Source of the DNA: Flavivirga aquimarina | GTDB lineage: Bacteria > Bacteroidota > Bacteroidia > Flavobacteriales > Flavobacteriaceae | DNA: 64,000 nucleotides | NCBI RefSeq assembly: GCF_030540835.1 | Contig: NZ_JAUOEK010000184.1 | Location: forward strand, 1 to 64,000 | Direction: 5' to 3' | The notes under the pieces: model-generated | Seen by the model: only the letters and a program-made list of their open reading frames with translations | What the model was told of the DNA's origin: nothing | Databases searched by the model: none | Part shown: piece after piece, positions 8,893 through 19,900 of the stretch | How the letters are laid out: each line of letters opens with the position of its first letter | Numbering within the stretch: the first letter of the stretch is position 1 | Made by a program: the position numbers and the translations under genes

Positions 8893-9045
8893 GAGTTGAA
8901 TGTATTTTTTTAGTTTTTAATGAGCACAAAATAACGCAATAATTTATAAAGTAAGTAATTTCTTTCTTGTTTTAAAAATAAATTGTGAAGAAAAAATATT
9001 GTAGTTTTATAAATTATCTATACTTAATTTAAAACCAAAAATCAT

Positions 9046-9639
9046 TTGAAATATCCTCCAAAATATCATCTGGATAATAACATGAATCACATGATTGAAG
9101 TTATTAAAACTTATCCATTAGCAACTGTAATTTCGGTAAAAGATAATCAACCTTTAATTACTCATTTGCCTTTGATTTTTAATGATGAAGGTAAACTTAT
9201 TGGGCATATTGACAAATTTAATCCGCAAGCGGCATTGTTAAAAGATGATAACGATGTAACTATTGTATTTTCCGGACCGCAATGCTACATTTCTCCCAGT
9301 GTATATGCTTCCAAACAACTCCCAACGTGGAATTATATTATGGTTCATTTAAAAGCTACTGTTAAAGCCATTGAAAGTAAAGAAGCTTTAAAAGAATCGT
9401 TAATAAATATGACTGCTTTTTTAGAAGCTCCAGACCATAAATATGTTTTAGAACCTGATAACCGTAGCATGAAAGGGTATTTAGATTATATTAAAATGTT
9501 TGAAATGACTATTACTAATTGGGAAGGTAAATTTAAACTCTCTCAAGATAAAAAACCACGTGATATGGAAAATGCCAGAGCCGAACTTATAAGAGCTAAT
9601 CAAGAAAGTATCGAACAGTTTTTAAAGAAAGTATTTTAA
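9046..9639 (+). CDS. FMN-binding split-barrel protein, PaiB-like
   Basis: The 197-residue protein matches the PaiB/negative transcriptional regulator family: Y-P-P-K-Y-H near the N-terminus, TYPLATVIS, LITHLPLIF, GHIDKFNPQ, and the central VVF-type strand followed by Y-I-S-P-S-V-Y and T-W-N-Y, which line the flavin site. Members bind FMN; whether this one regulates transcription is unknown. The start is TTG at 9046: the family begins M-x-x-P-x-x-F/Y exactly there, and the next ATG codons (9081 and 9090) would remove the conserved P-P-K-Y-H segment. It stands alone. Confidence 0.82.
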   Translation: MKYPPKYHLDNNMNHMIEVIKTYPLATVISVKDNQPLITHLPLIFNDEGKLIGHIDKFNPQAALLKDDNDVTIVFSGPQCYISPSVYASKQLPTWNYIMVHLKATVKAIESKEALKESLINMTAFLEAPDHKYVLEPDNRSMKGYLDYIKMFEMTITNWEGKFKLSQDKKPRDMENARAELIRANQESIEQFLKKVF

Positions 9640-9757
9640 GCCTCTAATTATTAGTCGGAGTAAATACAATAAATAAAAATGAATAAAAAACGTTGTTTAA
9701 GAATAAGATGGGACACTTTTAAATGATTTCAGGTTGTAATCCAAAAACTAGGCAGTA

Positions 9758-10837
9758 TTGAAGCTATCAAAAAAACTATTATTATTCCTTTATATATCAA
9801 TACCTAGCCTTGCTATTTCTCAAACAACTCAAACAAAAGTTATTGCTACTGGCGGTGATGGTATTTATTCTATCCTTAGAAAAAATGGTCTTGAACCAAC
9901 AAAATACTATAAAGCTTTTATTGAACTTAATAAAGAAAATTTAACTCCAGACAATGGTTTAGTTAAAGGTAGAACCTATAAACTTCCAGTAGTAACAAAA
10001 GATTCCATTATTACTATAGATACATTATCTATAGTAAAGAAAACTATACCAAAAACCATTGAAAAACCTATTGTTAGTAACACACCAGTAAATCAAATTA
10101 ATTATCCACTTTTTGGCAAAGATTATGATGATGTGCCTCTGGAAAACAATACTCTAAAGGGAGCTATTTATTATTTAATTTCTGGACATGGAGGCCCCGA
10201 TCCCGGAGCCATAGAAACTTACAATAGTAAATTAATTTCTGAAGACGAATATGCTTATGATGTTACTTTACGATTAGCACGAAGGCTCATGGCTCATGGT
10301 GCAAAGGTTTATCTCATTATTAAAGATTATAACGACGGCATTAGAGACAAAAAAATACTTGAAGTCGATTACGACGAAGTTAATTTCCCAGATAAACCAA
10401 TTTCGAAAAGTCAAAAATTACGATTAAGACAACGCACAAAAACTGTAAATAATTTATACTTAAAACATAAAGGTGCCTACCAAAGATTAATTGTTACACA
10501 TGTTGACAGTAGAAGTAAAGGTAAAAATATTGATGTGTTTTTTTACCATCATCATAGCAGTAAAAGCGGGAAACGATTAGCTGAAAATATTCACAGGTCG
10601 TTCAAAGAAAAGTATGCTAAACACCAACCTAACAGAATATATTCGGGTACCGTTAACTCCAGAGGGCTCTATCTAATAAAAAATACCTTACCAGCTATGG
10701 TATATATTGAACTAGGGAATATAAAAAACAAAAAAGACCAAAAACGAATTCTTAATTACGAAAACAGAGCGGCTTTAGCAAAATGGGTTTTCAATGGACT
10801 TTTGGTTGATTTTGATGAGAGCAAAAGACTTCATTAA
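9758..10837 (+). CDS. N-acetylmuramoyl-L-alanine amidase with LysM-like domain
   Basis: An exported cell-wall hydrolase of 359 residues. It has a signal peptide (KLLLFLYISIPSLAISQ), a degenerate LysM-like repeat (GDGIYSILRKNGL to GRTYKLPVV, about residues 32-85), a linker, and an amidase_3 domain from about residue 135. Zinc-ligand and catalytic motifs are S-G-H-G-G-P-D-P-G, E-D-E-Y-A-Y-D-V, V-D-S-R (in place of the usual H-x-N), and I-E-L-G-N with the catalytic Glu. It would cleave the bond between MurNAc and the stem peptide. Start is TTG at 9758, required to include the signal peptide. The neighbour downstream is a small unknown gene 68 bases away. Confidence 0.85.
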   Translation: MKLSKKLLLFLYISIPSLAISQTTQTKVIATGGDGIYSILRKNGLEPTKYYKAFIELNKENLTPDNGLVKGRTYKLPVVTKDSIITIDTLSIVKKTIPKTIEKPIVSNTPVNQINYPLFGKDYDDVPLENNTLKGAIYYLISGHGGPDPGAIETYNSKLISEDEYAYDVTLRLARRLMAHGAKVYLIIKDYNDGIRDKKILEVDYDEVNFPDKPISKSQKLRLRQRTKTVNNLYLKHKGAYQRLIVTHVDSRSKGKNIDVFFYHHHSSKSGKRLAENIHRSFKEKYAKHQPNRIYSGTVNSRGLYLIKNTLPAMVYIELGNIKNKKDQKRILNYENRAALAKWVFNGLLVDFDESKRLH

Positions 10838-10905
10838 CTTAGAGCAGTCGAAAAAATTTCGATACTATTTTGAATAATACTTTTTAATTTATAAATTCTG
10901 GACTC

Positions 10906-11325
10906 ATGTTTCCAGAAATTACACATATTCAGAATTTTATTGCAACTAATCAGGTCTCCTTTTGGTTAGGTAAAACGCGACCTATTAATGAAAAATTAGT
11001 TCCTGCAATATTAAAAATTCGAAATAACACCTATACGATTCATGCATTAGATGAATATGAAGATCTTAATTATTATAACCCCATATTAAACTTTATCGTC
11101 GTTTTTAGATCTATTGCAATTATTGATGAGTCCGAAGATTTTTTAATGTGGTGTAAGCTAGAATCCTTAGATGCTAACAACCATAAACTTTTAGATTACT
11201 ATAAAGGCATTTGTAACAATATTGAGGGTATCAATAATTGTTTTCCAAATAACAAGATCGATTATTTTGTCTCTGATTTGGATTTTCAATTGAATGCGGG
11301 AGTGATGCAGTTTTTGAGGAGGTAA
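10906..11325 (+). CDS. Conserved-looking small protein of unknown function
   Basis: The 139-residue soluble protein has no signal peptide, no membrane segment and no motif I recognise. It is Asn- and Asp-rich, with an aromatic N-terminal half (NQVSFWLGKTRP) and an acidic central part (IDESEDFLMWCKLE). It has an ATG start and coding-like composition. It lies between the amidase and the TIR-PLP island, and could belong to either or neither. Confidence 0.55.
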   Translation: MFPEITHIQNFIATNQVSFWLGKTRPINEKLVPAILKIRNNTYTIHALDEYEDLNYYNPILNFIVVFRSIAIIDESEDFLMWCKLESLDANNHKLLDYYKGICNNIEGINNCFPNNKIDYFVSDLDFQLNAGVMQFLRR

Positions 11326-11607
11326 TTTATAAGTTTGAAAACGAAGGTTTTGTTATTCAATTATTCTAGATAAATTATCTTATATGTATACCCTATAAGG
11401 CTTACAAAAATGTTATTCTATTTTAATTATACCATAAACCTCTGTAATTTAAGTAATAAAACGTTATTTTCCCCACCCTTTTTCTTTTTTAATTGTATTT
11501 ATGATATAAGAATTAATAAGTAATAAATTCCCACTTAATTATTCAAAGTAAATGAATAAAAGTTATTGATTCTATATTTAAAATGGGATTACCTCACAAA
11601 AAACTTA

Positions 11608-13290
11608 ATGAATAAAGAATTAAAAATATTTCTATCATATTGTCAGAAAAACGATCATCAAGCTGATACAATTGAACATGATTTAAAGACGAAGCATAAC
11701 TTAACAGTGATCAGAGATATAAGAGATGTAAAAGCATTTGGTAGTGTAAAAAAATTCATGAAATCTGTTAGAGATTCAGACTTTGTAATAAAGTTGATAA
11801 GCAAAGAATATCTAGAATCAGATAGTTGCATGTATGAGGTAATCGAGTTTATTAAGGACAACAACCAATTATTACATTATTTGGAAAGGACGATTCCAAT
11901 TATAATACCAAATGCAAGACAAGGTAAGCACAATATTTTTAAACCATCAGGAAAGCTATTTTGGACAAAATACTGGGCCAATAAACACAAAGAATTGTTT
12001 CATGAATATCAAGAATTTATAAAAGGAAACTACTCAATAGACCTTGATATAGCACTTAAAGAATTGCGAAATGATCTAGGTGTTTATAAAACGATATCTG
12101 AATGCATTTCTAATGAATTCCTAACATATATATGCAATCATAAACTATGCGTTAATTATAATGGGTTATTGAAAAATGACTATCGTCAAATCCTATTTAA
12201 GATTTCACCAAATCAAGTACCTAACTTAAACAGAGAATCTATTCCAAACAAAAGCCAAAGAATTTCAAATTTGGACACACGTTTCAAATTAATTTCTATA
12301 GTTGAGAATGCTGATCCGAAGCATCCAGAATTTCCACCGGAAAATCCACAATTTCCTGCTACTCCAACTATTCCAATTACGATAAATGGATTTGATAATG
12401 TTTGGCTAAAAGATGAAAGCTACAACCCAACTGGAACACACAAAGATAGACTTGCATATGAAGTTATACGTAAGTTTTACAAGCCACTTCTAAAGTCGAA
12501 TATAGCAAATGACAAAAAATCTATACCACATTTATCAATGATTTCATCTGGTAGTGCTGCATTTGCAATACAAAGATTACTTAATAACTATAATTTACCA
12601 CATTTAAAAGTACTAACAGATGAAAATACAAACAAAACAATCATTAATTCACTTAAAAATATAGGGTGTGAAATCTTCTATGCAGATTTGAATGAAAAAG
12701 CCTTAACTTGTTCAGAAATCCTCGACTTAACTGATAATCATGGTGGAGTTGATATAAGCTCTCGAGATATGTTAGACCCCATTAATTATGTTTACTATGA
12801 TTGGCTGAGTTATGAAATACTAAATAACAAGGGCGATTATTATTTCATTCCATTTGGCACAGGTGATTTATTCTCTAATATTTTAAATATATCTGTGAAG
12901 GAAGCATTGTCAAGCACCCATGACAAAAGGTTAATTGATACCCGTTATGATTATTCCAAGTCAAATTTTATAGGTGTAACAACATCTGATAAAAAATCAA
13001 TTATGGATAAACTTTATTCTCCATTTCTTCCGTTCTCTGGTATTCGCCTAAAAGAAATTGAAGAGTATAAAGAAATAGGAGTTTGCGGAGAGTTAACTGG
13101 AATACGTTATTTAGAAGAAAACTTAATTTATCCAGCGCTTGAAATTGCTGAAAGAAATAATATTAATTGCGAACCTAGCGGGATTGCTGGTCTTGCAATG
13201 TTGCTAAGTATGGAAAGTCAAATTCCAAAGGACAAGAAAATAGTGGTTGTGAATACTGGAAAACTAAAACTCGATCTATACGAGTTATAA
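11608..13290 (+). CDS. TIR domain fused to fold-type II PLP-dependent enzyme
   Basis: This is a two-domain protein of 560 residues. Residues 1-140 form a TIR domain: K-I-F-L-S-Y-C (strand A), D-I-R-D-V-K-A-F-G-S, a conserved D-S-D-F-V-I-K-L-I-S-K-E-Y-L-E-S, and S-C-M-Y-E in which Glu77 sits where NAD-cleaving TIR domains have their catalytic Glu (C-x-x-E). After a helical linker (about 145-225), residues 230-560 match threonine-synthase/cysteine-synthase-like PLP enzymes: L-K-D-E-S-Y-N-P-T-G-T-H-K-D-R with the Schiff-base lysine at 279, a phosphate loop I-S-S-G-S-A-A-F-A (about 312-320), and P-F-G-T-G-D-L (about 415-421). ATG at 11608 is chosen over an upstream TTG at 11566 because K-I-F-L-S-Y is the normal TIR beginning. 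No signal peptide. The function is not known; TIR fusions in bacteria are mostly immune effectors. Confidence 0.85.
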   Translation: MNKELKIFLSYCQKNDHQADTIEHDLKTKHNLTVIRDIRDVKAFGSVKKFMKSVRDSDFVIKLISKEYLESDSCMYEVIEFIKDNNQLLHYLERTIPIIIPNARQGKHNIFKPSGKLFWTKYWANKHKELFHEYQEFIKGNYSIDLDIALKELRNDLGVYKTISECISNEFLTYICNHKLCVNYNGLLKNDYRQILFKISPNQVPNLNRESIPNKSQRISNLDTRFKLISIVENADPKHPEFPPENPQFPATPTIPITINGFDNVWLKDESYNPTGTHKDRLAYEVIRKFYKPLLKSNIANDKKSIPHLSMISSGSAAFAIQRLLNNYNLPHLKVLTDENTNKTIINSLKNIGCEIFYADLNEKALTCSEILDLTDNHGGVDISSRDMLDPINYVYYDWLSYEILNNKGDYYFIPFGTGDLFSNILNISVKEALSSTHDKRLIDTRYDYSKSNFIGVTTSDKKSIMDKLYSPFLPFSGIRLKEIEEYKEIGVCGELTGIRYLEENLIYPALEIAERNNINCEPSGIAGLAMLLSMESQIPKDKKIVVVNTGKLKLDLYEL

Positions 13291-13651
13291 ACTAAAATAT
13301 CCACTAACTATTGTCGTACAAATGACCAAATTTATAAAGTAAGGTTTTTTCAGTTTAATAGAATACATAAAATGTTTATTGATGTTTTTTAAAAAAGACA
13401 CAGATGGCAACTTTCTAAGTTAAAAGAGTTTTAGAAAGATTGAATACGAAAGAAGATATCAATATATACCACTAAGAGTAATTGATAACTTACTAAAAAG
13501 TGAAACCAAAAGCTCCTTAGTAAATTGGAAAAAATCATTAATGATCTAGTAAGTTTAAATTTCTAATTCACAAGACATATCAAGACAAAGAAATTTTGAA
13601 TACGATATATCACGTTCAATAAGAAGAAACAATTTTTAAAATTAAAGCATT
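13291..13651 (+). other. Gap between TIR-PLP and its small neighbour, possible decayed reading frame
   Basis: No intact gene. One plus-strand frame from an ATG at 13382 reads through 13637 with several stops. It contains a stretch of 41 codons with protein-like composition (R-K-I-E-Y-E-R-R-Y-Q-Y-I-P-L-R). This may be the remains of a small gene, or chance in AT-rich DNA. No terminator or clear TAnnTTTG promoter was seen. Confidence 0.3.
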
Positions 13652-14173
13652 ATGCCAATAGTAAAATTATCATCTACAAGATTTAAGGTTAACCTTGGGT
13701 TTCTTTCAATAGAAACAAATTGGGAGATTAATGAAATACAAAAACATGCGGCTTGGGAAATGTATGTAGAGTTAGCAACAAGAACCGCAACGAATAAACT
13801 TTCGAAAGACGAAGGACTACTTAGAGAAACGTTAACTTCTCTTCATTCTCTTTTTGCCATTACCAGAGATATTTTAAAGAAATACGGATCTCTAATTGCT
13901 ACACCAGAAAACACGGGTGATATAACATTTGGGCATTTAGCAATCAGTGTTTTGAATAAGGTACTCAGGCCTACATTGGCAAAATGGCATCCTATTCTTC
14001 TAGATTGGGAACAACAAAAGCCAATTAAAAAAAGTTCAACTGAACATGAAAGTCAATGGGAGTTTAACGATAAATTAAGAGAAGAGCTTAACGTTGTTAG
14101 GTTGAAATTAATTGAATATGCTAATGTTTTGGGAGAAGTTTCAGAAGTTTCAAATCTGATCGGTAAAGAATAA
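13652..14173 (+). CDS. Small helical protein of unknown function next to the TIR-PLP gene
   Basis: The 173-residue soluble protein looks mostly alpha-helical. Features are an N-terminal beta hairpin (VNLGFLSIETNWEI), H-A-A-W-E-M-Y-V-E-L, a helix pair around L-L-R-E-T-L-T-S-L-H-S-L-F-A-I-T-R-D-I-L, and V-L-N-K-V-L-R-P-T-L-A-K-W-H-P-I-L-L-D-W-E, followed by a hydrophilic helical tail. The WHPxLLDWE signature is distinctive and I have an impression of related small proteins in other bacterial conflict loci, but I cannot name a family. It lies 361 bases downstream of the TIR-PLP gene on the same strand. Confidence 0.65.
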   Translation: MPIVKLSSTRFKVNLGFLSIETNWEINEIQKHAAWEMYVELATRTATNKLSKDEGLLRETLTSLHSLFAITRDILKKYGSLIATPENTGDITFGHLAISVLNKVLRPTLAKWHPILLDWEQQKPIKKSSTEHESQWEFNDKLREELNVVRLKLIEYANVLGEVSEVSNLIGKE

Positions 14174-14211
14174 AAATGAGGCAAAACAAGATCTCCCATA
14201 AAAAGTATTGG

Positions 14212-15582
14212 TCAAGAAAACTTCGTACGCCTAAATCCATCCTTAACAGCCTCAAAATCCAATCCACCATAATTCCCAGAACTCATAAGCAACAAAGTTT
14301 TATTTTCAAATCCCTGCGAAAATAAAAAGTTTTTAAAATCCTCAGGGTTTGTATAAATAATGAGATCCTCACGTTGAAAAGCATTAGCTATTTGTTCATG
14401 AGTTACCTCTTCAAGCTTTTTAATTTCAACCGCATGAGGCGAATAAAAAACCACTGCAACATCGGCAGCGTCTAATGCACCTCTATATTCTTTTAAAAAC
14501 TCCGCATTTAAACTACTGTAGGTATGTAACTCTAAACAAGCTACTAAGGTTCTATCATCATATTGCTCCTTAACAGCTTTTGTAGTCGCTTCTACTTTGC
14601 TAGGTGAATGTGCAAAATCTTTATAAGCCACACTGGTACTACTTTCAGCAATTTTTTCCAAACGCTTACTAGCGCCTTTAAAAGTAGCAATAGCTTCATA
14701 AAAATCATCTTCATCAATACCCATATGCTGACAAATCCATTTAGCACCCGCCAGATTATTTAAATTATGCTTTCCAAATACTTCAATAGGTAAATCACCT
14801 TCCGGTGTTTCTAATAAGGTTTGTCCATTTTCTACGGTATACTCAGGTGTTTGGTATGCCAATTTTCTAATCGTGTTCGCCGAAGCTTCCACTACTCGTT
14901 TTACCTCTGGGTCTTCTTCGTTGTAGTTAATGCTTCCACCACTGACAATAGAATCTACAAAAATGCGAAACTGCTCTACATAGTTATCATAAGTCGGAAA
15001 CACATTGATGTGATCCCATGCTATACCACTTAAAAGTGCGATATTAGGCTTATATAAATGGAATTTCGGACGCATATCAATAGGAGAACTTAAATACTCA
15101 TCACCTTCTAACACGATAAAATCATTAGCTTCAGTAAGTTTTACCATCACATCAAAACCCTCTAACTGTGCACCTACCATATAATCGACATCTCTATCAT
15201 GATAATGCATCACGTGTAAAATCATAGAAGTTATGGTTGTTTTCCCATGACTTCCTCCAATAACCACACGTGTTTTATGTTTTGATTGCTCGTATAAAAA
15301 CTCTGGATAACTATAAATTTTCAAATCCAGTTCTTGAGCTTTTAATAACTCCGGATTATCTTGTTTAGCATGCATTCCTAAAACAATAGCATCTAAATCT
15401 GAGGTGATTTTTTCCGGATACCACCCAAAAGTTTCAGGCAATAGTCCTTTGGCATCTAATCTTGATTTTGAAGGTTCGAATATGGTATCATCACTTCCAG
15501 TTACTTTGTATCCTTTATTATATAATGCTAAAGCTAAATTATGCATGGCAGCACCACCAATGGCTATAAAATGTACATTCAT
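14212..15582 (-). CDS. mpl: UDP-N-acetylmuramate:L-alanyl-gamma-D-glutamyl-meso-diaminopimelate ligase
   Basis: A peptidoglycan-recycling ligase of 456 residues that attaches recovered tripeptide to UDP-MurNAc. It belongs to the Mur ligase fold: N-terminal H-F-I-A-I-G-G-A-A-M-H (nucleotide-sugar binding, Mpl-specific where MurC has G-I-G-G-x-G-M-S), the ATP loop G-G-S-H-G-K-T-T-I-T, L-E-G-D-E-Y (catalytic Glu/Asp), and H-N-L-N-N in the third domain region. ATG at 15582 is preferred over 15603, as the family starts right before H-F-I-A. It stands between the accessory TIR island and a CAGT-repeat region. Confidence 0.9.
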   Translation of the reverse strand: MNVHFIAIGGAAMHNLALALYNKGYKVTGSDDTIFEPSKSRLDAKGLLPETFGWYPEKITSDLDAIVLGMHAKQDNPELLKAQELDLKIYSYPEFLYEQSKHKTRVVIGGSHGKTTITSMILHVMHYHDRDVDYMVGAQLEGFDVMVKLTEANDFIVLEGDEYLSSPIDMRPKFHLYKPNIALLSGIAWDHINVFPTYDNYVEQFRIFVDSIVSGGSINYNEEDPEVKRVVEASANTIRKLAYQTPEYTVENGQTLLETPEGDLPIEVFGKHNLNNLAGAKWICQHMGIDEDDFYEAIATFKGASKRLEKIAESSTSVAYKDFAHSPSKVEATTKAVKEQYDDRTLVACLELHTYSSLNAEFLKEYRGALDAADVAVVFYSPHAVEIKKLEEVTHEQIANAFQREDLIIYTNPEDFKNFLFSQGFENKTLLLMSSGNYGGLDFEAVKDGFRRTKFS

Positions 15583-15592
15583 AAAACAAATA

Positions 15593-15804
15593 TCAAGCTC
15601 CAAATTTCAAATTCCAAATTAAACCTGATAAAATAGTCGTATTCAGTGCTCAGTATACAGTAATCGGTGTTCAGTGTTCGTCCAATAATATTTTAGTATA
15701 AAGTATTAAGTTTAGGACTTACCTTATAGAAAGGGTACACTTTGACTGCTATTTTTTCTGCTTACTGAGCACTGAACACTGTATACTGAACACTGATTAC
15801 TGTA
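15593..15804. repeat. CAGT-rich imperfect inverted repeat
   Basis: The left arm (15641-15680) and right arm (15763-15804) are built from variable copies of CAGT-type units such as TTCAGT, ATACAGT and their complements. The best arm match is TACAGTAATCGGTGTTCAG at 15656-15674 against the reverse complement of 15786-15804, with one mismatch in 19. Just to the left, 15593-15622 holds another simple repeat (CAAATTTCAAATTCCAAATT). It lies between mpl and a TPR gene, both minus strand. No protein is encoded. Confidence 0.7.
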
Positions 15805-15812
15805 TCCTAAAC

Positions 15813-16766
15813 CTACAACCCAAGTATCTTCTCTTTTTGCTCCTTAAATGGTTCAATTTTTGGAAGTTCAGCAATGGCTAGCTCAATATATTTTAGAGCT
15901 TCCTGTTTGTTTTTTTTGTGCATATGGATTTGAGCCAAACGATAATGAGCCCAAGCTTTAGGAACCCCATCTTCGGCAGAATAATTCTCTAAATAGGTAT
16001 GCAAACATTGCTCACCCTTTTGTAACTCGATATTATATTCGGCAGCCACCTTACCTATTTGGTAATGCATCGCGTTACGTTGGTGCTTCCTATGGGCTGC
16101 TTCAATAGTTTCTATGGCTTTTTCCGGTTCTTCTTCGTTTTTATAAAAATTGGTTAATTTATTATAACAGGTTACAGACTCACCTTCTTTTATAGCCATT
16201 TTATAATACGTTTCGGCAAGTTCCGGTTCGTCATCATACTCATAAACATAGCCTTTAGCCAAATAACCATCTACTTTCGAAAGAGCTTCCAATTCTTGAG
16301 CATAGTATAACGATTTACTTTTACTACCTCCCAAAATACCCGGTAGTTGCATGTATAATTCTACCAAAGCCCAACGGGTATCAATATGGTTTTTATCCAG
16401 TTCGGCGGCCTTTAAAAAGGCTTCTTTCACATCGCCGATAATGCCCAGAGCTTTTAATTTACTAATAGACAAGACTTTCATAGCCAATGCACCACCATAT
16501 TTATAATGGTAATTGGCATCACTTTCTTTATATTTTATTAGTTTTTTATATTGTATAATGGCATCATCCCATTTTTTTTGATGCCCATAAGCGTCCCCCA
16601 ATAATTCAATAGCCTTCAAATTATTCGGATGTGTTTTCAAATAATAACTAACAAATTGTTCTGCCTTTTTAAATTGCTGTTGTTTTAAAAGTGCTTCTAC
16701 TTCAATGAGATTAGATTGAGCCAGAGCCATAAAAGGAAATAAGAAAAGGAGCAAATAAAACTTCAT
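15813..16766 (-). CDS. Exported TPR-repeat protein
   Basis: The 317-residue product has a signal peptide (FYLLLFLFPFMALAQ) and at least five tetratricopeptide-like helix pairs, for example A-I-E-L-L-G-D-A-Y-G-H-Q-K-K-W-D-D-A-I-I and A-H-Y-R-L-A-Q-I-H-M-H-K-K-N-K-Q-E-A-L. Probably periplasmic, acting as a protein-interaction scaffold. A cluster of Ser/Gly (GILGGSKSKSLYYAQEL) interrupts the repeats. No catalytic motif. It is divergent from the alpha-2-macroglobulin gene, with a 142-base intergenic region. Confidence 0.8.
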   Translation of the reverse strand: MKFYLLLFLFPFMALAQSNLIEVEALLKQQQFKKAEQFVSYYLKTHPNNLKAIELLGDAYGHQKKWDDAIIQYKKLIKYKESDANYHYKYGGALAMKVLSISKLKALGIIGDVKEAFLKAAELDKNHIDTRWALVELYMQLPGILGGSKSKSLYYAQELEALSKVDGYLAKGYVYEYDDEPELAETYYKMAIKEGESVTCYNKLTNFYKNEEEPEKAIETIEAAHRKHQRNAMHYQIGKVAAEYNIELQKGEQCLHTYLENYSAEDGVPKAWAHYRLAQIHMHKKNKQEALKYIELAIAELPKIEPFKEQKEKILGL

Positions 16767-16908
16767 AATTGTATAGTCGAAAACGTAAAAATAAACTTTC
16801 TATTTTACTCACAAAAAACTAACTTCACTCAATCAAATAGTCTGTTTACTCATTGCTTATTTTTTGGTATAGCTTTTGAAAGTACTTTAGATATAAACTT
16901 TAAAACCC

Positions 16909-19900
16909 ATGAGAAATACTTTACCCCTATTAATAATTATATTATTTGCCACATTTTCTAACGCTCAAAACAGTAAATATGAGAACTTATGGGCTAAAGT
17001 TGGTCAATTTGAAGCTGAAGGTTTAGCTAAATCTGCTTTAAAAACAGTTGAAGACATTAACAAATTGGCTAAAAAAGAGAATAACGCACCTCAAGTTATT
17101 AAAAGTATGCTCTTAAAAAGCAAATATGCCTTGACTTTAGAGGAAGATGCTCAACTTAAAGTTATCAACGATTTTAATGACGCCATTGAAAAAAGTGCAT
17201 TTCCAACAAAAAACGTTTTAGAAAGTATCCTAGCCAATATGTATTGGCAATATTTTAATAGAAATGGGTGGAAGATTTATAATCGTACAAAAACTACAGA
17301 GAAAGTAGACACCTCCGATTTTAGAACATGGGATTTACAAACATTATTCAACGAGATTCATATACACTACCAAAATTCGTTACAAAACGGATTGATGTTA
17401 CAATTAGAACCTCTAAGCAATTACGATGATATTTTAGATTTAGAAGAAGGTTCTAAAATTTACAGACCGACCCTATTCGATTTCTTAAGTCATAATGCAC
17501 TACAGTTTTATAAAACCGATCAAACTCATATTACCAAACCTGCCTATAAATTTGAGATCGAAAATCCTGAACTCTTAGGTAAAAGTGATGTTTTTTCAAA
17601 GTTAAAAATAACATCAAAAGATAGTACGTCTTTGCAACTTAATGCTTTAAAAATTTATCAAAATTTAATTAATTTTCATTTAAAAGACAATGCCCCTTTT
17701 GCCTTAGCCGATGTAAATATTCGTCGTTTAAAGTTTGTGAATCGACATGCTACATTTAACGATAAAGATCTTATTCTTTTAAACATTTTAAAAACAGAAA
17801 AAGACCGTTTAAAAGCATATGAAGTATCTACTTTATACGATTATGAAATAGCAGCTATTTACAATCAACAAGGTGCAAATTACAAACCTAAGACCAATGA
17901 AGGTAACCAATGGAAGATTAAAGAAGCCCTTGCTATTTGCAACAATGCTATTTCAAAATTTCCAAAAAGTGATGGTGCTGAAAAATGTACTGTTTTAAAA
18001 CAACAAATAGAACAGTCAACATTACAAATCACTACAGAAAATTTTCTTCCTATTCAACAGAATACACGCATACTGGTACAGTATAAAAACTTAGATCAAC
18101 TTCAGTTTAAAATATTTAAGCTCACTCAAAGTCAATTAAAAAAATTTAAAAAAACCTACAGACAAGACAAACAACTAGCATTTATTAAAAAATTAAACAT
18201 TTATAAAGATTGGAACCATACATTACGAAATGAAGACGATTATCAAACACATACTACCGAAATTTTAATTCCAAAGCTAAATAATGGTAACTATTTAATT
18301 TATGTTTCTCCTAAAAACGATGATAAAATCTTAGCATTTAGTATAACACAAGTCACTAATTTAGCTTTAGTAGAAATAGAAAGCCCTAAATACAAAACGT
18401 TTCAAATTATTGATCGGAATAATGGAACTCCTATTAAAAATACAGCGGTAGAATTAAGCTACTTTAAGAACAATGATAAAAGCTTAAGTACAGAAAACTA
18501 CACTACAAATAGTTACGGTGAAATTAAAATTAAAAAGGCTAATATCAGATATAGAAATATTTCTGTTAAAGTTAAACACTTAGGTGACTTAGCTTATTTT
18601 GGCAATTATTATGTAGGTCAATCTTATAAGCGCGAAAAAGAAAAAGATGTTTATAAAGCTTTTGTATTCACAGATAGAAGCATATACAGACCCGGGCAAA
18701 CCGTATATTTTAAGGCCATAGCTATTAAGGCACAAAAAGGAACATCAGAAGTTTTAGCAAATAAGAATGTTTATGCTACACTATACAACTCTAATAGTGA
18801 AGAAGTTAAGGAGTTGGAGTTAAAAACCAATGAATTCGGATCGGTTTCTGGCTCCTTTATTTTACCAAATAATGGCTTAAATGGTGAATATCATATAGAA
18901 TTTGATTCAGATTTAGCATCTATCGATTTATATACAGAACATTATTTCTCAGTAGAAGAATATAAACGTCCAAAATTTGAAACAACGCTTAATCCCGTAA
19001 CCGAAACTTATAAGGTTAATGATTCTGTAACCATAAAAGGTAATGCATTAGCTTATGCAGGAAGCAACATTACCGATGCTAAAGTAGTATATAGAGTCCA
19101 TAGAAAAGTGCAGTACCCCCGCTGGTATTTTTGGAGTCACCCAAGTTTTTATAGTAAACCCCAAGAGATTACACATGGCGAAAGTGTAACGAATAACAAA
19201 GGGGAATTTGAAATCACTTTTAAAGCCATTCCAGATCAAAGTGTTAACAAAAAGGGACTTCCTGTTTTTAATTACGAAGTAACAGTTGATGTTATCGATT
19301 TAAATGGCGAAACCAGAAGTGCTACCTCTATAGTTAATGTTGGGTATCATGCATTAACAATGAATATGACCATTCCTAGCCTCATAGATAAAACTAAAAA
19401 GAATAATGCCATTACCATAGATTCTAAAAATTTGAATGGTGAATTTGTACCGGCAAAAGGAACTGTTAAAATTTACAAATTAGATGCACCTAAAAGAGCT
19501 TTAAGACAAAGACCATGGAATGCTCCAGATTATCAAGAATTTTCACAGGAGGTTTTTGAAAACCTATTTCCTTATGATGCCTATAATGATGAACAGAATC
19601 CTAACAATTGGAAAAAAGAAGAGCTTGTTTTTATATCGTCCTTTAACACAGACAAAACAAAAAAACTCAATCTGGGCAAAATTAAAAAATGGGAATCGGG
19701 CACTTATAGTATTGTATTAGAAAGCAAAGACAAGTTTGGACAATTAGTTAAAGATGAAATTAAAACAACCTTATATAGTGATAAAGATAAAACCGTAACA
19801 GATAAACAATTATTTGCTATCACAACAAACAAATCAAACTATAAAGTAGGAGAAAATGCCTTAATTACGTTAGGGTCTGCTGCTAGTAATTTAAGTGTTA

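Follow-up and report, generated by a model that had tools for sequence, protein, structure and literature searches.

What might a bacterium do with a single protein that carries a TIR domain at one end and a PLP-dependent enzyme domain at the other? TIR domains destroy NAD+ or make ADP-ribose signals, and a recurrent TIR-PLP fusion would bring NAD-based immunity and amino-acid chemistry together in a single polypeptide. The question is raised by a 560-residue open reading frame of Flavivirga aquimarina (assembly GCF_030540835.1, contig NZ_JAUOEK010000184.1), which lies within the 64,000-nucleotide stretch analyzed here (positions 1 to 64,000, forward strand; hereafter the window). A first-pass annotation of this DNA had described a TIR domain joined to a threonine-synthase-like PLP enzyme, encoded in a short accessory insertion, and knew of no characterized system with this architecture. 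Likewise, no paper describing a TIR-PLP fusion was found among open-licence papers, and neither pyridoxal nor PLP is mentioned in the available parts of PMC7159879, PMC8195603 and PMC13174449.

The explanation that we tentatively favor, with slightly less than even confidence, makes the gene product a two-headed conflict protein, built from a PLP core and an NAD-cleaving TIR head, for which the product of a small neighboring gene (orf173) serves as a partner. The analysis also brings to light a conserved family of PLP enzymes present in CPR and DPANN organisms, and the small TIR-associated family of orf173 offers a testable partner or receiver. The features on which the discussion below relies are collected in Table 1.

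Table 1. Features of the fusion gene and its surroundings, in window coordinates (roles given for individual residues are our assignments).
Feature	Position	Strand	Remarks
TIR-PLP fusion protein, 560 aa	11608..13290	+	
TIR domain, residues 7-123	11626..11976	+	Pfam TIR_2; TIR structures matched by profile
Glu77 of C-x-x-E	11836..11838	+	occupies the column of the L6 and Roq1 glutamate
Linker, mainly helical, residues about 124-228	11977..12291	+	predicted model m38adc258d83d; low confidence at 205-221
Fold-type II PLP domain, residues about 229-560	12292..13287	+	
Lys279, presumed Schiff-base lysine, in N-P-T-G-T-H-K-D-R	12442..12444	+	61/61 rows of alignment A3
S-S-G-S-A-A loop, residues 313-318	12544..12561	+	Ser replaces the canonical Asn
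G-T-G, presumed phosphate-loop motif, residues 417-419	12856..12864	+	Gly417 61/61, Gly419 60/61
Thr550-Gly551, presumed pyridine-nitrogen contact	13255..13260	+	61/61
orf173, 173 aa, TIR-associated family	13652..14173	+	proposed partner
Accessory interval between orf139 and mpl	11333..14239	.	DNA similarity limits at flanking genes

A TIR domain and a PLP domain share one reading frame

The fusion gene is an uninterrupted frame without stops, and both of its domains pass their Pfam profiles, with TIR_2 scoring 44.9 bits against a cut-off of 28 (E 2e-11) and PALP scoring 75.2 bits against a cut-off of 35 (E 7e-21). A profile search with the window TIR retrieved TIR structures, Cat1 among them, and the order of strands and helices in the predicted model of the window protein fits a TIR domain. 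These profile matches bear out the earlier assignment of the N-terminal part. A fold search with the predicted structure listed PLP structures only and therefore says nothing for or against the TIR fold. The annotated C-x-x-E pattern is indeed present, and we take Glu77 to be the glutamate that characterizes NAD-cleaving TIRs. Among PADLOC models, the fusion yields weak matches to ThsB (E 0.006, residues 6-85) and to SAVED_TIR (E 0.031, within the TIR part).

Because the frame is free of stops and five other loci have the two domains in this order within a single frame, it is exceedingly improbable that an assembly or sequencing artefact has united two genes. The fusion is kept in relatives, which settles the concern, voiced in the first-pass annotation, that a sequencing error might have joined separate genes.

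The fusion recurs in other bacteria

A search of genome contigs with the PLP alignment retained the best 80 of at least 212 relatives, whereas a search with the whole protein gave 61 pattern matches and no relatives. Among the best 80, a TIR-like region precedes the PLP domain in six, which answers the call for other TIR-PLP fusions. Five of these (L064, L069, L087, L089 and L090) encode the fusion as a single frame of about 700 aa, and in the sixth (L091) the TIR and PLP parts are split by a 100-N assembly gap. Five of the six records are titled Bacteroidetes and the remaining one, L089, is titled Candidatus Kapabacteria. The proteins from these MAGs share 37-41% identity with the window protein through the TIR, linker and PLP regions, and the TIR and linker of L087 alone align with those of the window at 28% identity over 184 aa (E 4e-19). 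At their N-terminus the MAG fusions carry a further domain of ~130 aa, which is missing from the window protein. Their TIR assignment comes from alignment and from our own profile, with independent profile matches for only L064, L090 and L091; TIR_2 falls below the Pfam cut-off in L064, L087, L089 and L090 and is absent from L069. The window TIR is no nearer to the TIRs of the MAG fusions than to free TIRs, and an 80-row tree, in which the window lies on a long branch, requires three changes of the TIR label, so the fusion may have arisen once or more than once.

The distribution of the fusion is patchy. Within the genus it is present in one of 12 genomes, its own included. Relatives occur in at least 1 of 397 genomes of the family, 3 of 395 of the class and 2 of 395 of the phylum, counts that include the window's own genome and are lower bounds, as scoring was confined to the highest-ranked first-look candidates of each genome. 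Neither plasmids nor phages gave a match to the fusion at E 1e-5, PHROGs gave none, and viral_contigs gave none to the PLP alignment; a phage-borne origin is therefore unsupported by these collections.

Comparison of the seven fusions, the window's included, reveals a difference between the two heads. The position of Glu77 is occupied by Glu in the window protein, L069, L087 and L089 (4/7), by His in L064, where a Glu occurs one place earlier, and by Asp in L090 and L091. The Glu77 column is invariant in a ten-sequence alignment (A6) that omits L064, L090 and L091, all of which lack this glutamate. NAD cleavage is therefore not required in every member, and the TIR domain is probably an add-on that is catalytic in some proteins, including that of the window, and not in others. 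The cofactor-site residues of the PLP domain are retained in all six complete fusions. With a TIR glutamate that is lost in three of the seven fusions and a PLP site that never varies, the family seems to have the PLP enzyme as its core and constant part.

The PLP domain represents a separate enzyme family

To describe the PLP half we used an alignment (A3) of 61 of 82 PLP sequences, from which near-copies, rows that were cut or had odd starts, and some others were left out. Asn273, His278, Lys279, Gly417, Ser524, Thr550 and Gly551 are identical in all 61 rows, and K268-D-E, T375, N377, Y397-D-W and R441 are invariant as well. We take Lys279 to be the Schiff-base lysine, G-T-G at 417-419 to be the phosphate-loop motif, and Thr550-Gly551 to contact the pyridine nitrogen. 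Such invariance of the cofactor pocket is the pattern expected of a working enzyme.

The substrate loop of threonine synthase reads S-S-G-N-T, with an Asn that the aligned cysteine synthases also have at the equivalent of position 316. In A3 this position is Ser in 46 rows, Ala in five and Asn in four of the 61, and the window protein has Ser316. Threonine synthase itself was considered and rejected as an identity for the domain, given a best NCBIfam score of 28.7 against the 266 bits called for and the missing loop Asn; the domain in fact reaches the cut-off of none of the NCBIfam models listed. Searches of PDB sequences returned nothing at E 1e-5 with a 44-row profile and, with a 3-row profile, a cysteine synthase as the best match (4.5e-6). 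The fold search of the predicted model places threonine synthase and serine racemase nearest. The description of the domain as threonine-synthase-like is therefore sound for the fold but not for family membership. Besides the mostly absent Asn, the family differs from threonine synthase and other fold-type II enzymes by its own K-D-E, T-x-N, Y-D-W and Arg441. From the invariant residues, these motifs and the scores far below threonine synthase models, the PLP half belongs to a family of its own, whose members are probably active enzymes.

Most relatives consist of the PLP domain alone. In the 80-row tree, which was built without L088 (no open frame), L050 and L074 (partial frames only), 56 rows (support 93/99) are proteins of ~340 aa that are mostly from CPR or DPANN organisms by record title. 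Another 20 rows form a clade (98/88) of proteins with N-terminal additions, titled Bacteroidota except for L089, and long branches lead to the window, L107, L111 and L010. Across the family, the N-terminal domains vary on a constant PLP part. The protein nearest to the window by identity, among the best 80 of at least 212 relatives, is from a Nanoarchaeota record (54%). Within the phylum of L042 the family was found in 3 of 87 genomes, and within that of L030 in 8 of 90, the centre genome included each time. The stand-alone members of the set (L030-L109) are thus scattered through CPR bacteria and DPANN archaea and keep their own invariant motifs.

A search for conserved operons among the 80 PLP loci found ten Cyclobacteriaceae-type loci with common neighbors, and other shared clusters were small. 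In these ten (L094-L098 and L100-L104), a TIR-less PLP gene occupies a fixed place after genes that resemble ileS and lspA by eye. This position looks housekeeping, unlike that of an accessory gene, and counts against a conflict role. Genes of one similarity cluster, of Lrp/AsnC type, lie no more than six ORFs from the PLP gene in 7/80 loci, and the member in L087, an Lrp/AsnC regulator by Pfam, is directly upstream of the fusion gene.

The fusion gene and orf173 occupy a variable site

DNA similarity to genus relatives stops at 11332, just past orf139, and restarts at 14240 within the end of mpl, as seen in the five of 11 relatives aligned there. The only ORFs of at least 80 aa inside this interval are the fusion gene and orf173, which are separated by a 361-bp gap and may or may not be transcribed together. 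Neither was matched in the corresponding stretch of any of the 11 relatives. Ten of these have other contents there, of 785-5759 bp, and one (L120) has no orf139 match. The interval is a variable site in the genus. By eye, the ORFs that relatives carry at this place (L112-L122) include a TetR-type regulator, large repeat proteins and lipoproteins. No long terminal repeats bound 11333-14239, and promoter and terminator scans gave results at chance level. The view that the fusion gene is a short accessory insertion holds as far as its accessory position is concerned, but the gene is not alone, because orf173 shares the interval. The two genes likely arrived jointly, and they may instead have arrived separately.

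The orf173 protein has no passing Pfam match and no match in PADLOC, NCBIfam or PHROGs. Homologues occur on ten plasmid records from 8 species. Eight of these records were examined, the other two being further records of S. longwoodensis, and a TIR gene is found within the 4 to 5 kb flank of seven. It is the next gene in Streptomyces cynarae (TIR by annotation, WD40 by Pfam) and Photobacterium toruni, and it lies in the flank in S. longwoodensis, Vibrio cortegadensis, Mesorhizobium, Sinorhizobium and Calothrix; in Ruegeria no TIR was recognized in the flank. On the basis of these neighborhoods, orf173 is assigned to a TIR-associated family and is a likely partner of the fusion. As a comparison, two TIR profiles run over 1.29 Mb of the 80 PLP loci found the fusions and no other TIR, a weak control because one profile recovered the TIR in only 2/8 orf173 plasmid loci (L126 and L131) and the other was built from orf173 loci.

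Some homologues of orf173 are parts of larger arrangements. In Mesorhizobium and Sinorhizobium (L130 and L131) an orf173-like part opens a patatin-domain protein, with the Sinorhizobium patatin under the Pfam cut-off. In genome G450 (L124) three consecutive genes encode a ThsB-like TIR, Nmad2 and a homologue of orf173 that by eye includes a membrane segment. These three loci look like a TIR-signal effector module. Nmad2 genes are present in L124 and L130, and ThsB-like TIRs stand beside the orf173-type domains of L124, L130 and L131.

Few observations connect orf173 with the PLP family. A search of 198 genomes for orf173 gave three matches, namely the window's own, G450 and G460. In G460 (L125:1384-2532) a single protein combines an orf173 domain with the N-terminal domain of the Cyclobacteriaceae-type PLP proteins (L094:9440-10966; profile E 1.2e-6), and G450 also has a PLP homologue, on a different contig from its orf173 homologue. 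No orf173 homologue was found near the other PLP loci examined.

One relative lies beside type III-B CRISPR genes

A CARF-AAA-HTH activator gene, matched by PADLOC as RtcR_PspF2 type (E 5.7e-128), ends 99 bp upstream of the fusion gene in L064. Both genes share a strand, and Cas6b, Cmr1 and Cas10/Cmr2 lie beyond the activator on the opposite strand. Within L064:1-9382, type III-B CRISPR genes, the CARF-sigma54 activator, the fusion, a TumE-type toxin and a methyltransferase occur in one stretch. Four of the five complete MAG fusions have no recognized defence neighbor within 5 kb, as judged mostly by eye; one of these records, L090, ends 79 bp after the fusion gene, which limits the downstream view. 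L064 is thus the one case among six with defence neighbors, none having been recognized near the other five.

Relationship to known systems

Bacterial TIR NADase effectors are comparable through their TIR, as is a TIR subfamily from the family of the window (L002-L007), whose six members share the TIR domain (with a C-M-x-E motif in these six) and a W-containing extension, at 26-34% identity. The other parts of these six are TPR-like or membrane-like by eye and include no PLP domain, in contrast to the fusion. Thoeris also uses a TIR, and some orf173 relatives adjoin ThsB-type TIRs, whereas the window TIR itself matches ThsB weakly and ThsA was not recognized in orf139 or orf173, the two neighbors scanned (no PADLOC match at E 1; no passing Pfam match). 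To our knowledge, Thoeris has no counterpart of the PLP domain. Type III CRISPR-linked effectors such as Cat1 likewise share the TIR, and a relative adjoins type III-B genes as noted for L064; however, the window fusion has no recognized CARF or SAVED domain, and no CRISPR link was seen for the other fusions (with the window annotated over 9000-17000). As for the EAD/STAND conflict systems treated in the available part of PMC7159879, neither an EAD nor an NTPase Pfam match was found in the fusion, orf139 or orf173, although Pfam may not hold every EAD.

Possible roles for the fusion

The two-headed proposal rests on sequence-based observations: the presence of both domains, their intact cofactor and glutamate residues, the recurrence of the fusion, the lack of either gene at this site in the genus relatives, and the association of the orf173 family with TIRs. 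In such a scheme, infection or another assault would be sensed through orf173 together with TIR self-association, and the TIR would then cleave NAD+. The PLP core would carry out elimination or replacement reactions on a substrate resembling an amino acid and, as a second catalytic head, might either attack the amino-acid pool or set TIR activity through its substrate. The outcome would be a growth arrest that protects the population. We judge a conflict or defence role for the window fusion to be reasonably likely, and if so it is probably directed against phage; that both heads are active in this protein is somewhat more plausible than its converse. Any single form of coupling between TIR and PLP is, taken on its own, unlikely. 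Against a conflict role stand the weak PADLOC matches, the scarcity of defence neighbors and the absence of orf173 from other PLP loci.

Other readings of the same observations place the weight differently. The PLP domain could be a ligand sensor that binds an amino-acid-like metabolite as an aldimine, leaves it unconsumed, and thereby gates the TIR NADase. Replacement of the substrate-loop Asn in 57 of 61 A3 rows, from which ordinary PLP chemistry may be altered, would suit a sensor, as would the exchange of N-terminal domains on a constant PLP part and the Lrp/AsnC-type cluster at seven of the 80 loci, a hint of an amino-acid ligand. However, the invariant cofactor pocket and the stand-alone CPR/DPANN copies point to catalysis by the domain itself, and we regard a sensor as conceivable but doubtful. 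The protein could also be a metabolic enzyme for which the TIR is only an interaction or assembly module, with no role in defence. A fold nearest threonine synthase and serine racemase, the stable genomic place of the Cyclobacteriaceae-type relatives and the missing glutamate in three of seven fusions all agree with this, yet the very patchy presence, the adjoining TIR-associated gene, the CRISPR-linked relative and the intact glutamate in the window make a purely metabolic function unlikely.

It is also worth considering that the two heads make one product, whereby the TIR moves ADP-ribose from NAD+ onto an amino-acid-derived acceptor that the PLP domain supplies or modifies, and orf173 reads the resulting signal. 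Precedent is offered by one Thoeris type reported to use His-ADPR and by base exchange with imidazole and histamine by a ThsB TIR (both in the available part of PMC11204291). The orf173-family domains that occur with patatin (L130, L131) or a membrane segment (L124, by eye) fit a signal receiver. A joint product is nonetheless improbable, as no effector part is recognized in orf173 of the window, most PLP homologues have no TIR, and the glutamate is missing from three of the fused TIRs. Returning to the two-headed conflict protein, a broader and more speculative version, which we consider rather unlikely, is that the fusion is an immune protein of a new kind, in which NAD cleavage and PLP amino-acid chemistry jointly make or destroy, in infected cells, either a nucleotide linked to an amino acid or a pool of amino acids, that the PLP head has its origin in a family also present in the ultra-small CPR and DPANN organisms, and that the orf173 family comprises general receivers or regulators of TIR signals.

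Two further PLP loci have distinctive neighbors. In genome G422 a radical SAM/SPASM gene (L093:11065-12213) lies directly 3′ of the PLP gene on the same strand, and no ORF of the other loci examined is homologous to it at E 1e-5. In G450 (L024:3627-10223) the PLP homologue is near genes for a relaxase and a conjugative coupling protein, and it may therefore be carried on a mobile element.
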